Source: Bacteroidota bacterium
Lineage (GTDB): Bacteria > Bacteroidota > Ignavibacteria > Kapaibacteriales > UBA961
Assembly (NCBI GenBank): GCA_020852855.1
Contig: JADZAA010000070.1
Location: 1 to 35,499 of the forward strand
Direction of reading: 5' to 3'
DNA length: 35,499 nt
This document shows positions 16,341 to 35,499 of the stretch, one piece after another. The notes under the pieces were generated by a model that was not told the origin of the DNA, searched no databases, and was given only the letters and a program-made list of their open reading frames with translations. The position numbers and the translations under genes were made by a program. The number at the start of each line of letters is the position of its first letter. The first letter of the stretch is position 1.

Positions 16341-16352
16341 CGGAGTAATATT

Positions 16353-17681
16353 GTGCAATCGGCAAGTTCATTCATATTTTTTATATGTTCCGCGCTTTTT
16401 ATTTTAAGCTCAAGCATCTGCGCATTACGGGCACAAACTACCGGAAATGAAACAATTTATTTGAAATATGCCGATTCGCTTATCGGCCGAACAGAATCGG
16501 CCGGAATGATTCGCGAACTTAACGGACGGGTGAATCTTACTCAAGGCGATGTTATTTTATATTGCGATCGTGCAATTCAGTATCTTGACCTTAATAAAGT
16601 AGAACTTATCGGTTCCGTAAGAATTATTCAAGGAACTGTAACCCTTACTGCACCGCGAGCCGATTACGATGGAAATCAAAGACTTGCTTGGGGACACAAA
16701 GGCGTTAAAATAGTAGACCGACAAATAACTCTCGATGCTGATTCAGGTTATTATTCCACCTCAACGGCAATTGCAAATTTCAACGGAACTGTAAAAATTC
16801 TCGATGATTCGGTAAAAATTCTTGCCGACAGCGTCGAATACAGTCGCCGAAGCCAAAACAGCTCGGCTTTTGGCCGCGTTGCCGTAAGCGGACGATATTC
16901 AAATGTAGTTTTAACCGGCGATTCAGCTTGGAATTTTCCCGCAACAAGATAGTCCCGAATTGCAGGCAACTCAATACTTCGGCAAATCGACTCAACTTTT
17001 ACTGCCGATTCATCCAATTTCACTTCGGATACTGTAACAACAATAAAATCATCTCATTACGACACTTTGACAATTTCTGCAAAGGTTATGGAAGCATTCC
17101 GTAATGACGGCGAACTTTACGTCGCTTACGGAACAGCCGAAATAGTTCGTGCATCGCTTGCAGCACGTACCGATACGATAATTTATCAAAAACGAGATGA
17201 TATTTTAAGGCTTCGTGGCGCATCGCCCGCACTATGGTATGACTCCACACAGCTTCGCGCCGACTCTATTTCGGTATTTATTCCCCAAAAAAAATTAAGA
17301 CGGATTGAGGCTTCAGGCAATGCTTTTAGTGCCGTGCGTGATGATACTGCAAACACAGAACGCACACAGCAACTTTCCGGTGCATTTATCAGGATTGATG
17401 TTGAAAATGACACATTAAGGCAAATATTTGTTCGCGGTGATGCCAAAAGTTTATATTTTATGCAAACCGATGGCGAGCCGGACGGTGCGGCGCGAAATTC
17501 TGCCGACAGTATTCGCATTGAAACGCTTGACGGCAAACCGGAAATTATTCGTTGGTTAGGCGGAGTAAATGGCGAATTTTTCCCTGAAATATTCATTTTA
17601 AAAAAAACCTCGGATTATTATCTGCCAAATTTTTTATGGCTGACTGACCGCCCAAAAAGGAAAATTCCGCTAATAAGATAA
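16353..17681 (+). pseudogene. OstA/LptA-like LPS-transport protein interrupted by an in-frame amber codon
   Basis: One reading frame runs for 443 codons from GTG 16353 (after a GGAG site 8 nt away and a signal peptide ending near LRAQ) to the TAA at 17681. It is cut at codon 200 by TAG (16950-16952). Both halves belong to one OstA-like family protein. The first has repeated beta-strand units such as ADSLIGRTESAGMIRELNG and GDVILYCDRAIQYL. The sequence straight after the TAG continues in frame as SRIAGNSILRQIDST, then DTLTISAKVMEAFRNDGELY, and ends with EFFPEIFILKK. No frameshift is needed. The position is usually aromatic in my memory of the family, so a TAT or TAC to TAG change is the simplest reading. 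Intact members bridge LPS across the periplasm. The alternatives are readthrough or a base-calling error. Confidence 0.75.
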
Positions 17682-17797: not shown

Positions 17798-19753
17798 ATG
17801 AAATCGCATCTGCTTACGGTAATTTGTTTTTTTATAGCGGTTGCTATGTGCAGTGCCGATAATGGCAACATAAGTTCGCCGACAGAATTTCGCCCGCAGA
17901 AATTTGATGTGTTGCGATACGAGGCTACGCTCGATTTCACAAAAGCACCCTCAGCCGAAATGCGAGGAGAATGTACGACTTCTTTACGTTGGTTAGACAG
18001 CACTAATTTGATATATCGTTTTCACTTGCGAGGCTTGACCATCGACTCGGCGTTTATGGACGGTATTCGCGTAAGTCCGCAATTTGCAGCAGATTCGCTT
18101 AATGCAATATCACATTACGAAGTTATCCGAACACTTCCGATTAAGGCAGGCGATACTTCACGCCTCTTGATTTATTATCACGGAGTTATGACGGCTGAAC
18201 CGGGCGGAGCTTATGCATGGGGCGGTGTTCTTTCACGGCAAGGAACTCTGTACGCTATGGGCGTTGGTTTTACCGCGCCTTATGTTTCTACCACGCAACA
18301 TTGGCTGCCATGTTACGACCATCCATCTGATAAAGCGACTTTTCATGCCTCATTTCTTGTACCCAAAGACTATTTTGCTGCCTCAAACGGGATTCTCACG
18401 CGCTTAGTAGAAGGCGATACTGCAATTTACGAATGGGAACACGATATTCCTTGTGCTACATATTTATTGACTTTTGCAGTGGATAAATACGTTCCGCTTA
18501 ATTTTTCTGCATCAGTTCCTGCCGTTGTTTATTCAAAGCCTGCAGATACAAATTCTACACGAATATCATTTTCAAGATTGCCGGAAATGATTGCATGTTT
18601 TGAAAATCGTTTTATTCCCTATCCTTTTGAAAAGGTAGGCTATGTGAATACTCCCACCGGTGCAATGGAGCATCAAACAATGATTTCTTTCAATACTTCA
18701 TTGTCACAGTCTAAAAATACGGTTAATTCTGTGGCTGCACATGAGTTGGCTCATCAATGGTTTGGCGACTTGGTTTCACCGTTAGATTTTCGGCATGTAT
18801 GGCTTACAGAGAGTTTTGCCACCTTCTGCGAAGCACTTTGGGCAGATTGTGCAGGCGTTTCGGGCGGCTATTTAAAAGATATGAGCGATAAATTGTCTCG
18901 TTATCTAAATTCAGTTGCCAAATCCGAAGGTGTAATTCCGATTTTCGATTTTCCCCGTAAATCGCCTTCTTCCAATTATCCGGAAACTATCTACTTGAAG
19001 GGTGCTGTCGTGCTTGGTATGCTGCGCTATGAATTGGGCGACAGCCTGTTTTTCGGCGGCTTGCGTGAATATCTTACACGTCATAAATATTCGATTGCCG
19101 CCACTTCCGACATGAAATTAGTATTAGAGCAAATATCGGGAAAAGACCTCAGTCAATTTTTCAAACAATGGATAGAAATGCCCGGTTGGCCTATTTTAAC
19201 TATTGATACTGCAAGCACATCAATCGGAAATAATCTTAAAAACCTGAAAATTCATATAAAACAAACGCAGCCTGCTTCTTACGGAATTTATGAAAATGTT
19301 CCGATAGAATTCGGATTTAAACAGCAAAAAGATGGCAATTATATTTATAGAATGGTCACTCTTTCCGGTACGGAGCAAACTTTTACTTTGGATTCTTTAC
19401 CTAATTTTACGGCTGTTACCATAAACGAAGGTCCTACTGTACGGGCTTTATTGCAGGTAACTCGCATCACCGATGTGGAAGAACAAAATTCACCGTCCAA
19501 ACAGGCGCAGTTACACGTATTGCCAAATCCATTTTCAGGCTCTATAACGGTTATCTTCTCTACATATTCACCGAATACAGCAATTAGCGTAATATCGCCG
19601 GAAGGCAAAACTGTATTCAGCGAACATTACGAAACAGATTTAGGAGAAAACTCTATTGCCGTACCTCTCCCCAATCTTGCAAACGGCACATATTTCGTTC
19701 GTGTAGAAACTGGGAATGAAAGATATTCCTCGCCGATAATTTTGCAAAGATAG
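17798..19753 (+). CDS. T9SS-secreted M1 family zinc aminopeptidase
   Basis: The 651-residue protein has a signal peptide (MKSHLLTVICFFIAVAMCSA). The gluzincin motif is complete: HELAHQWFGD gives zinc ligands H315 and H319 with catalytic E316, and WLTESFATF gives the third ligand E338, 19 residues after H319. The exopeptidase motif normally GxMEN reads GAMEH (288-292), a variant seen in bacterial M1 enzymes. The N-terminal saddle domain (about 35-235) and the thermolysin-like domain (about 236-470) are present. The long helical C-terminal M1 domain is missing and is replaced by a short beta region. Residues of about 575-651 (LPNPFSGSITVIF, then NGTYFVRVETG) form a T9SS type A sorting domain. 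It should trim amino-terminal residues from peptides outside the cell, working downstream of the secreted subtilase. It stops in TAG and is followed by a bidirectional terminator. Confidence 0.92.
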   Translation: MKSHLLTVICFFIAVAMCSADNGNISSPTEFRPQKFDVLRYEATLDFTKAPSAEMRGECTTSLRWLDSTNLIYRFHLRGLTIDSAFMDGIRVSPQFAADSLNAISHYEVIRTLPIKAGDTSRLLIYYHGVMTAEPGGAYAWGGVLSRQGTLYAMGVGFTAPYVSTTQHWLPCYDHPSDKATFHASFLVPKDYFAASNGILTRLVEGDTAIYEWEHDIPCATYLLTFAVDKYVPLNFSASVPAVVYSKPADTNSTRISFSRLPEMIACFENRFIPYPFEKVGYVNTPTGAMEHQTMISFNTSLSQSKNTVNSVAAHELAHQWFGDLVSPLDFRHVWLTESFATFCEALWADCAGVSGGYLKDMSDKLSRYLNSVAKSEGVIPIFDFPRKSPSSNYPETIYLKGAVVLGMLRYELGDSLFFGGLREYLTRHKYSIAATSDMKLVLEQISGKDLSQFFKQWIEMPGWPILTIDTASTSIGNNLKNLKIHIKQTQPASYGIYENVPIEFGFKQQKDGNYIYRMVTLSGTEQTFTLDSLPNFTAVTINEGPTVRALLQVTRITDVEEQNSPSKQAQLHVLPNPFSGSITVIFSTYSPNTAISVISPEGKTVFSEHYETDLGENSIAVPLPNLANGTYFVRVETGNERYSSPIILQR

Positions 19754-25821: not shown

Positions 25822-26295
25822 ATGGCTTCCGTTTCCGTAGGGCAAAAAGCCCCCGATTTCTCGTTGTACGATCAAAGCAACAAATTGCGCTCTTTGAGTG
25901 AATTTGCCGGAAAAAATGTGATTTTAGCATTTTATCCGGGCGCATTTACCGGCGTTTGCGACACTGAAATGTGCAAATTCCGCGACTCGCTCGACATACT
26001 GAACAATGCGAACGCGCAAACTCTCGGCATCAGCGTAGATATGCCGTTTACCGCAAAAGTATTCGCCCAAAAGTATAATTTAGAATTTCCGTTGCTTTCG
26101 GATTACAATCGCAACGTTATACGTCAATACGACTTATTGCTTTCTAATTTTGCCGGTCTGCCCGGTTTGGACTCAACAAAACGCGCCGTATATCTGATTG
26201 ACGGCGACGGTGTTCTCCGTTATATGGAAATAACCGCTACACCGCACGACGAGCCCGATTACACAAAATTATTCGATGCTCTCAAAGCATTGTAG
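25822..26295 (+). CDS. Peroxiredoxin (AhpC/TSA-Bcp type)
   Basis: The 157-residue protein has the peroxiredoxin active site FYPGAFTGVCDTEMCKFRD, with P39, T43 and peroxidatic C46. C51 is five residues on, the spacing of the resolving cysteine in Bcp/PrxQ enzymes, so a two-cysteine intramolecular mechanism is likely. The fold starts VGQKAPDFSLYDQSNK as expected. It reduces hydrogen peroxide and organic hydroperoxides in the cytoplasm, with thioredoxin as likely reductant. No signal peptide is seen. A membrane-anchored TlpA-like thioredoxin follows after 85 nt and may be cotranscribed. The ATG has a GAGG-like site about 9 nt upstream. Confidence 0.93.
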   Translation: MASVSVGQKAPDFSLYDQSNKLRSLSEFAGKNVILAFYPGAFTGVCDTEMCKFRDSLDILNNANAQTLGISVDMPFTAKVFAQKYNLEFPLLSDYNRNVIRQYDLLLSNFAGLPGLDSTKRAVYLIDGDGVLRYMEITATPHDEPDYTKLFDALKAL

Positions 26296-32748: not shown

Positions 32749-34983
32749 CTACCGGTTTATCGCTACTTTGCCTACATTGCGACGACCATTTAAATCGTGA
32801 ATTTCCACGAAATATATACCCGATGTAAAACCATCGGTTGAAATTATTGCTTTGCCGGCAACGACTTTATCATTTATTGTTTTTATTCTGCCGAAAACGT
32901 CGCGAACGGTTATTGTTGCGCCTTCCGGACAATGCACCGTAAAAAAGTCGGACGCTGGGTTGGGAGAAATTAACATATTCGAAATAGCAATACTTTCTTC
33001 GGTTACAGCAGTAGATTTTTCCGTTGAAATTACCACGCGGCGAACACGCCGCACACCAATCAAATAAGCAGTTGAATCGTTTACTCTGAATATTTCGCGA
33101 TAATTCTCACCGCTTACATTTATATTTTTTTCATATAAAGTTACAGATGCGGGTGTCGAAAGTTTACTCCATGTTTTACCGCCGTTTAATGTCAATGCGG
33201 CTGTACCATCAAAACCGGCTATAAGTCCGACTGAATCTGTAAGAAACGTTAATGCTGTAAGAGAAGTCAATCCGGACTCTATGCTAAGCCAAGTATTTCC
33301 ACCATCTTCGCTAAGCAGTATTTTACCAAGTAAACTATAAACAAAAACAGTATTTTTATTTTTCCAGACTATTCTGTCGGGTGTTTCCGTGCTGTCGAAT
33401 GTATAAACGAAGTTCCATGTTTCACCGTAATCATTAGCGCGGACAAAAGTCGTGCGTCCGCCGATAGACAGCAAAGTAGCACCAACCGCTGCCGTTGCAA
33501 ACTGCGGAACTCCGAACGAACGCCATCCGACAGTATCCTTTACGGGTAAAGTTTTTATTAAATCTTTAAAGTACTTGGGTTGCCACGTGGCACCACTGTC
33601 GACGCTGCGAAAAAAGATGGGAATTGTTTCTTTTTCTGTTGAACGAAAATGGGACATATAACCGTGTGACGGCTCAGGAAAGTTAAACAGATTCCCTACT
33701 TGTTCCACATCATTCCACGTCGCACCGGCATCGGTGGTTTTTGCAAAGCACCGAGAACTGAGGCCTGTCGTACCTACAACATAGCCGGTAGTACGGCTGA
33801 CAAAATGAATATTGCTGAAATATGAAAGTTCATATCCATCTAACGGATATTGTAACATCCATGTAGCACCGGCATCGGTTGAGCGATAAATGCGTTTTCT
33901 GAATCCGCCTGCAACATAGATAGTATCCGAACTGCCATTATACGCCAAACCACCAAATGCCAAAAACCCGGTAGTCATAGATGATGATGAACCTTGACAA
34001 CGGACTTTCCAGGATTTTCCATAATCATTGGTAGTAGCCAATCCGCCGCTAATATAACCTCCGACTGCCAGCCCGCTACCGTCGGGCAGTATAGAAATAC
34101 TATAGATTATGTCGATAAGCTGGTAGCCGCCCGGCGTTCTCTCGAAAACAACTGTATCGGCAGTATTTTCCCAGCTTTTTCCAAAATCATTACTATGTAA
34201 TATTTTATTAGTACTTACAGTAATAAACTCATTGTCTTTTCCTGCGGTAAAATCACGAAATAAGTCATATTTATTTTTAACGACAGTGTCCCATACAGAA
34301 GTTTCGAAATTATAGCAAAAAGCAAGATCAGTTTGTCCTAAAGTAGTGTCAGCCGAAGTAACAATGCAGATAGATTCGCCGAGGAATTTACAGCGGTGAT
34401 ATTTTGAATTTTCGGTAAAGCGATATTTGCTCCAAGAATTTCCGCCGTCTGTTGTTAAAGCAATATCTCCCCACAGTCCGACCACAATACCACGAAGTCC
34501 TGAAAAAGCTATATCTATAAGTTCAACCGAATCAAGACCGTGCGAAAGTTTCGACCACTTACGAGTTACAAGATCGCCTCTCCACACATTACCGGCACTT
34601 CCCGCTACTATAACCGTATTGCCACCGGCATAAGTAATACCGGGCAAGGGTTCGCCAAGGTTTGCGGCAATGCTCCAAGTTGCACCTGCATCGGTAGTTT
34701 GCCATACACGACCGCTGTCATCAGCCATTACGCCGTTTCGGGAATCAGAAAAATCCATGCGTGTAAAATTTGCGAATGAACCGACTTCAATATTGCGCCA
34801 ATGTTCGCCCGCATCGGTGGAACGTATCATTCGCCCACACTCACCGGCAGCAAGCATAACACCTTCCGGCAGGGCTCGGCATGTCCGAAACGCCGAATAT
34901 TGGTCAGTCATACGAACCGAAAAAGTTTGCGAATACACCGTCGCAACAGAAAAACATATCAGTAAAAAAATAATTGTTTTCAT
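32749..34983 (-). CDS. T9SS-secreted Asp-box (BNR/YCF48-like) beta-propeller protein
   Basis: The 744-residue protein starts with a signal peptide (MKTIIFLLICFSVATVYSQ). I chose ATG 34983 because the open frame upstream adds hydrophobic but unrelated residues. The body has about eleven Asp-box motifs of the form (S/T)xDxGxxW, for example STDAGEHW, TTDAGATW, TTDGGNSW, SNDFGKSW, SVDSGATW, SEDGGNTW and NGGKTW, spaced at roughly propeller-blade intervals. These build sialidase-like or YCF48-like propellers, but no sialidase catalytic arginine triad is recognisable, so binding is more likely than catalysis. The last 80 residues (LISPNPASDFFTVH, then SGIYFVEIHDLNGR) are a T9SS type A sorting domain. 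It is likely a surface or secreted protein of unknown ligand. Confidence 0.88.
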   Translation of the reverse strand: MKTIIFLLICFSVATVYSQTFSVRMTDQYSAFRTCRALPEGVMLAAGECGRMIRSTDAGEHWRNIEVGSFANFTRMDFSDSRNGVMADDSGRVWQTTDAGATWSIAANLGEPLPGITYAGGNTVIVAGSAGNVWRGDLVTRKWSKLSHGLDSVELIDIAFSGLRGIVVGLWGDIALTTDGGNSWSKYRFTENSKYHRCKFLGESICIVTSADTTLGQTDLAFCYNFETSVWDTVVKNKYDLFRDFTAGKDNEFITVSTNKILHSNDFGKSWENTADTVVFERTPGGYQLIDIIYSISILPDGSGLAVGGYISGGLATTNDYGKSWKVRCQGSSSSMTTGFLAFGGLAYNGSSDTIYVAGGFRKRIYRSTDAGATWMLQYPLDGYELSYFSNIHFVSRTTGYVVGTTGLSSRCFAKTTDAGATWNDVEQVGNLFNFPEPSHGYMSHFRSTEKETIPIFFRSVDSGATWQPKYFKDLIKTLPVKDTVGWRSFGVPQFATAAVGATLLSIGGRTTFVRANDYGETWNFVYTFDSTETPDRIVWKNKNTVFVYSLLGKILLSEDGGNTWLSIESGLTSLTALTFLTDSVGLIAGFDGTAALTLNGGKTWSKLSTPASVTLYEKNINVSGENYREIFRVNDSTAYLIGVRRVRRVVISTEKSTAVTEESIAISNMLISPNPASDFFTVHCPEGATITVRDVFGRIKTINDKVVAGKAIISTDGFTSGIYFVEIHDLNGRRNVGKVAINR

Positions 34984-35020
34984 GATTAACTCTATAAAAA
35001 ATAAGGTGATAAAAAATAAT

Positions 35021-35051
35021 GGCTCTATGAATATATAATTTTCGCAGAGCC
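35021..35051 (-). terminator. Candidate terminator hairpin after the Cys-rich gene
   Basis: On the minus strand GGCTCT (35051-35046) pairs with AGAGCC (35026-35021) across a 19-nt loop, then ATTATTTTTT follows. The loop is long and the T run begins after three other bases, so strength is doubtful. It lies 6 nt past the stop of the Cys-rich gene. Confidence 0.42.
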
Positions 35052-35057
35052 TTTCGA

Positions 35058-35499
35058 TTATGGCCAATAACAACTATCGGGCAGGCAACCATCTGGGCAA
35101 GTACCCTGAAAAGACCTGCCTTGCTCCGTTAATATCGCTTCACCATCTTTACAGCAAAGAGTATAGGAAATAACACAGAAAGCATGTGTATTATCACAGT
35201 TGATTTCTCCATTTTTACAGCCGATATAATATGTTCGATAATTGGGTTCAACCCAAGGACAAACCGGGCAAGGCGGAAATACACCGCCTTTATTTTGTTT
35301 TATTATTTCTTCGGTTATGAATTTATCAATTTCCCTGTAATCCCAATTATTAAAACCGGCGCAACCCGACGGTATGTAAACTGCACCGCATAAAAATATC
35401 TCGGTAAAAGGTGCAACTAATCCTACTGTTCGATAACAGTAGTTTACAATTGTGGTACAAGTTACATTATTAACCGTATAAATGATTGTATCGTGACGC
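35058..35499 (-). CDS. Unrecognised cysteine-rich protein, C-terminal part (partial)
   Basis: A minus-strand frame open from the window edge gives 146 residues before a TAA at 35058. I do not recognise the family. It has fourteen cysteines, at positions 14, 21, 37, 46, 77, 80, 94, 101, 108, 115, 116, 134, 138 and 143 of the visible part. They fall in motifs such as PPCPVCPW, YYIGCKNGEINCDN and CPDGCLPDSCYW. A short helical segment near 54-70 (DYREIDKFITEEIIKQNKG) separates two Cys-bearing regions. Such cysteine density suggests disulfide bonding outside the cytoplasm, so an N-terminal signal peptide is expected beyond the window. No T9SS domain is present at this C-terminus. It precedes the Asp-box propeller gene in the same orientation (74 nt apart) and may be functionally paired with it. 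Confidence 0.7.
   Translation of the reverse strand, partial: RHDTIIYTVNNVTCTTIVNYCYRTVGLVAPFTEIFLCGAVYIPSGCAGFNNWDYREIDKFITEEIIKQNKGGVFPPCPVCPWVEPNYRTYYIGCKNGEINCDNTHAFCVISYTLCCKDGEAILTEQGRSFQGTCPDGCLPDSCYWP

Follow-up and report, generated by a model that had tools for sequence, protein, structure and literature searches.

The LptA protein of Escherichia coli is about 185 residues long. Gram-negative bacteria cannot do without the transport of LPS to the cell surface, and in E. coli lptA is an essential gene (PMC5575297). In-frame stop codons in bacterial genes have been reported as widespread and short-lived (PMC7918605). The gene described here resembles those cases in carrying a single nonsense codon in an otherwise conserved sequence, but differs from them in that the stop occurs in one genome only, with no orthologous stop amongst 40 relatives. 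It scores over the curated cut-offs of the OstA_2/LptA-like family and departs from that family in carrying an amber codon. This change from tyrosine to amber at codon 200 is most probably either an artefact (a wrong base, or a fault of assembly or consensus) or a nonsense allele of very recent origin.

The gene lies in a window of 35,499 nucleotides, the whole stretch of DNA analysed, as a single OstA_2/LptA-like frame of 443 codons on the forward (+) strand (16353-17681). It opens with GTG at 16353 and closes with TAA at 17679-17681, and its sole interruption is the TAG at 16950-16952. The leader (16341-16352, +) contains a GGAG 7 bases upstream of the GTG. Based on Pfam and the structure model, the part before the stop (16353-16949, +, codons 1-199) consists of a signal-peptide-like helix and the first half of a beta-ladder, while the part after it (16953-17681, +), which ends in the TAA, is still conserved, with 53-55% identity to the nearest relatives. 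The coding scores of the two parts are equal (0.149 and 0.163 bits per codon), neither an insertion nor a strong repeat was found at the TAG site, and the relatives align through codon 200 in one frame. These observations bear out the original prediction of one unbroken frame with a lone TAG and no frameshift, a good GGAG start site, steady codon use across the stop and family-like sequence resuming in frame beyond it. The split at the TAG is more than chance, because both of its sides belong to the same family. An M1 peptidase gene (17798-19753) carrying a C-terminal Por_Secre_tail, a type IX secretion sorting domain, adjoins the LptA-like gene. In the relatives, the genes that adjoin the locus were not found near the homologue.

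The assignment to an OstA/LptA-like family was supported both by Pfam cut-offs and by fold. The whole OstA_2 (PF13100) match falls on residues 34-178 of the N-terminal part (6.1e-19; 68.6 bits, cut-off 21.2), and the LptD_N/LptA domain (PF03968) was recognized on both the N-terminal (1.8e-7) and the C-terminal part (8.8e-6), scoring 31.8 and 26.4 bits against a cut-off of 20.4. The LptA equivalog TIGR03002 scored 40 bits, below its cut-off of 71.7; the gene product is therefore an OstA_2-family LptA-like protein and not a strict LptA, and at about 440 residues it is longer than the E. coli protein. The family profile also matches LptD and LptA in the PDB. When the read-through protein was modelled with tyrosine placed at residue 200, one long beta-ladder of the LptA/LptD type, with strands from 36 to 411, was confidently predicted (mean pLDDT 87.5). 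The best meaningful structural matches of the model were LptD, LptA and LptC chains, its predicted fold being like the jellyrolls of LptA, LptC and the LptD N-terminus, and solved single LptA jellyrolls matched it with TM values reaching 0.8 over the length of the jellyroll itself. Residue 200 lies where strand 185-195 gives way to strand 200-224, a place of high model confidence, and the stop is accordingly predicted to cut between two strands. Judging from its sequence, the product is a candidate periplasmic LPS-bridge protein which may move LPS from LptC to LptD. In one relative (L019 of genome G009) a loop in the middle of the protein, a short way past the position aligned with codon 200, holds a long Lys/Thr/Ser-rich insert; the model has its low-confidence loop, 221-230, in this region.

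Homologues were found in all of the 40 relatives searched, and none of these has a stop inside the homologue match. Among the named relatives, the nearest are metagenome-assembled genomes (MAGs) of Kapabacteria/Ignavibacteria, and nearly all of the 40 family members bear titles that mark them as MAGs. The genome bearing the window (G000; 2.8 Mb, 138 contigs, 99.2% complete) is probably a MAG as well, considering its fragmentation, its missing tRNAs and the fact that its named relatives are MAGs. No same-species or same-genus genome was present among the relatives searched, and a protein scan of genome contigs gave no match. The original prediction proposed reading the residue at codon 200 from a family alignment; when the window protein was aligned with 36 distinct relatives, this residue was tyrosine in 25, including all of the closest ones, the others having Leu (5), Met (3), Phe (1), Thr (1) or Ser (1). 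The codon at this position is TAT or TAC in all six relatives checked, the closest included, and because both codons are one base from TAG, a single substitution explains the stop.

The gene does not evolve faster past the stop than ahead of it. With the topology fixed and 26 intact relatives for comparison, the terminal branch of the window sequence measured 0.512 for the N-terminal half and 0.472 for the C-terminal half; the normalised C/N ratio was 0.71, and the intact relatives (n = 26) range from 0.37 to 2.97. Among the other 26 proteins 28 columns are invariant, 14 per half, and the window protein departs from them only once, at residue 181, before the stop, so that the C-terminal half keeps 14 of 14. 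The branch test fits each of three readings: the stop arose too recently to leave a trace, it does not exist in the organism, or the C-terminal half remains in use.

Genes for LpxC, two LptF/LptG proteins and one LptC are present and open in the genome, which suggests that the cell produces and transports LPS; as the pathway seems to be in use, loss of its one LptA-like protein should be costly. The gene thus appears to matter for viability and, given that LPS transport is essential, a fixed null is unlikely, which shifts the weight to an error, a rare strain variant or readthrough. Established decay into a true pseudogene is highly improbable: a mid-gene stop codon would be expected of it, but the frame holds neither a second stop nor a frameshift, the rate is not raised in the C-terminal half, whose invariant residues are retained, and no second copy was found to replace the gene. 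A paralogue under decay, one of the options originally put forward, is not supported on the same evidence, no second OstA/LptA-like gene having been found in the 2.8 Mb of the genome and the C-terminal half showing no relaxation. A paralogue taking over was rejected, too, on this copy number. A real TAG with a functional LptA-like module made up of the 199 N-terminal residues, either by themselves or with a C-terminal fragment whose translation restarts near ATG 17088, is distinctly unlikely. In its favour, the E. coli LptA comprises just one small jellyroll, solved jellyrolls of this kind match the model, the whole OstA_2 match lies before the stop and the cut falls between strands. However, the C-terminal half is conserved although it would then be untranslated or lack a signal peptide, the model forms one continuous ladder, it is the long form that occurs in the intact relatives, and there is no good restart site. 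As regards this site, the earlier statement that ATG 17088 has no ribosome site is roughly right, since an AAAGG lies only 2 bases from the ATG, but the absence of an SD motif is weak evidence in this genome, because an SD-like motif precedes the first possible start codon (a naive choice of start) in just 44 of 273 long ORFs from about 0.66 Mb.

A further reading, itself quite unlikely, is that the TAG is real and fixed and that low-level natural UAG readthrough, with a near-cognate tRNA (e.g., that for Tyr) inserting a residue, supplies the full-length protein. Comparative data have led to the proposal that bacterial in-frame stops are read through (PMC7918605), and the undecayed C-terminal half of a single-copy gene, with the rest of the LPS pathway present, would agree with it; the absence of decay, however, is equally expected under an error or a recent mutation. 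Against it, the structure downstream of the TAG that might stimulate readthrough is weak (z -1.5), the release factor RF1 gene prfA is intact, no tRNA with a CUA anticodon was found among the 38 tRNA genes read by ARAGORN, and the TAG is shared by none of the 40 relatives, contrary to conserved programmed readthrough. That a fixed amber codon throttles the sole LptA-like bridge protein of a Kapabacteria species, low-level readthrough thereby placing a normally essential LPS step under translational control, is very doubtful. Recoding or suppression of TAG, whether genome-wide or partial, is hardly conceivable. TAG terminates 31 of 173 long ORFs in a first sample and 53 of 273, about a fifth, in a larger one (stretches L055-L074 and L116-L135 of the genome, about 0.66 Mb); the M1 peptidase gene ends in TAG, as had been noted, and so do the ORFs at 25822-26295 and 32749-35073. 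With RF1 present, genome-wide recoding is untenable, in agreement with the original prediction. Only this one codon would speak for recoding. The sample yielded no further TAG in mid-gene, and the other TAG-split candidates (same-frame ORF pairs) read on inspection as a gene end followed by a separate gene. The suggestion of amber suppression by a dedicated tRNA found no support among the 38 tRNAs; the case is like supF, a tRNA-Tyr (CUA), in that the lost residue is tyrosine, but the single tRNA-Tyr found here has the anticodon GTA. The 38 lack certain expected tRNAs, namely tRNA-Ile(GAT), tRNA-Ala(TGC) and tRNA-Ser(GCT), and an assembly gap could therefore hide a suppressor tRNA. Their absence would be expected if the rRNA operons and some contigs are not in the assembly.

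The TAG is most likely not a decoding device, and we infer that the base is either wrong or recent; of the options offered earlier, a base error, or else a very recent mutation, fits best. The single OstA_2 LPS-bridge gene of this uncultured Kapabacteria genome would have taken one tyrosine-to-amber substitution at codon 200, arising either from a base or consensus error in an assembly that is probably metagenomic or from a nonsense allele of very recent origin. In metagenome assemblies, variants are known to be masked by the consensus sequence (PMC9426551). If the TAG is real, ribosomes would stop there and leave a 199-residue half-ladder, with the latter half of its lipid groove missing. If it is also fixed, a single-copy LPS bridge gene found in all relatives searched would need either readthrough or a half protein, and would be well suited to testing how nonsense codons are tolerated. 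For now, the locus mainly warns that a single base of a draft genome may mimic a split essential gene.

The background of broken genes in the assembly was surveyed with ORFs from about 0.69 Mb of two relatives (G002 and G003) against about 0.70 Mb of the window's own genome, covering 93 gene places and 36,705 codons. A mid-gene stop was found in one of the 93, codon 200 of the LptA-like gene, the 92 others being without; in two other gene places stops occurred only near the start codon, no more than 126 bases into the match. With 92 other genes clean, the assembly is not visibly error-rich, and one stray base is unsurprising: as a rough estimate, one wrong base per 100 kb would give about 28 in 2.8 Mb, about one of them making a stop. 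The survey also revealed, at L121:10017-11577, two neighbouring genes, apparently in tandem, that are both homologues of a single G002 protein of 264 residues.
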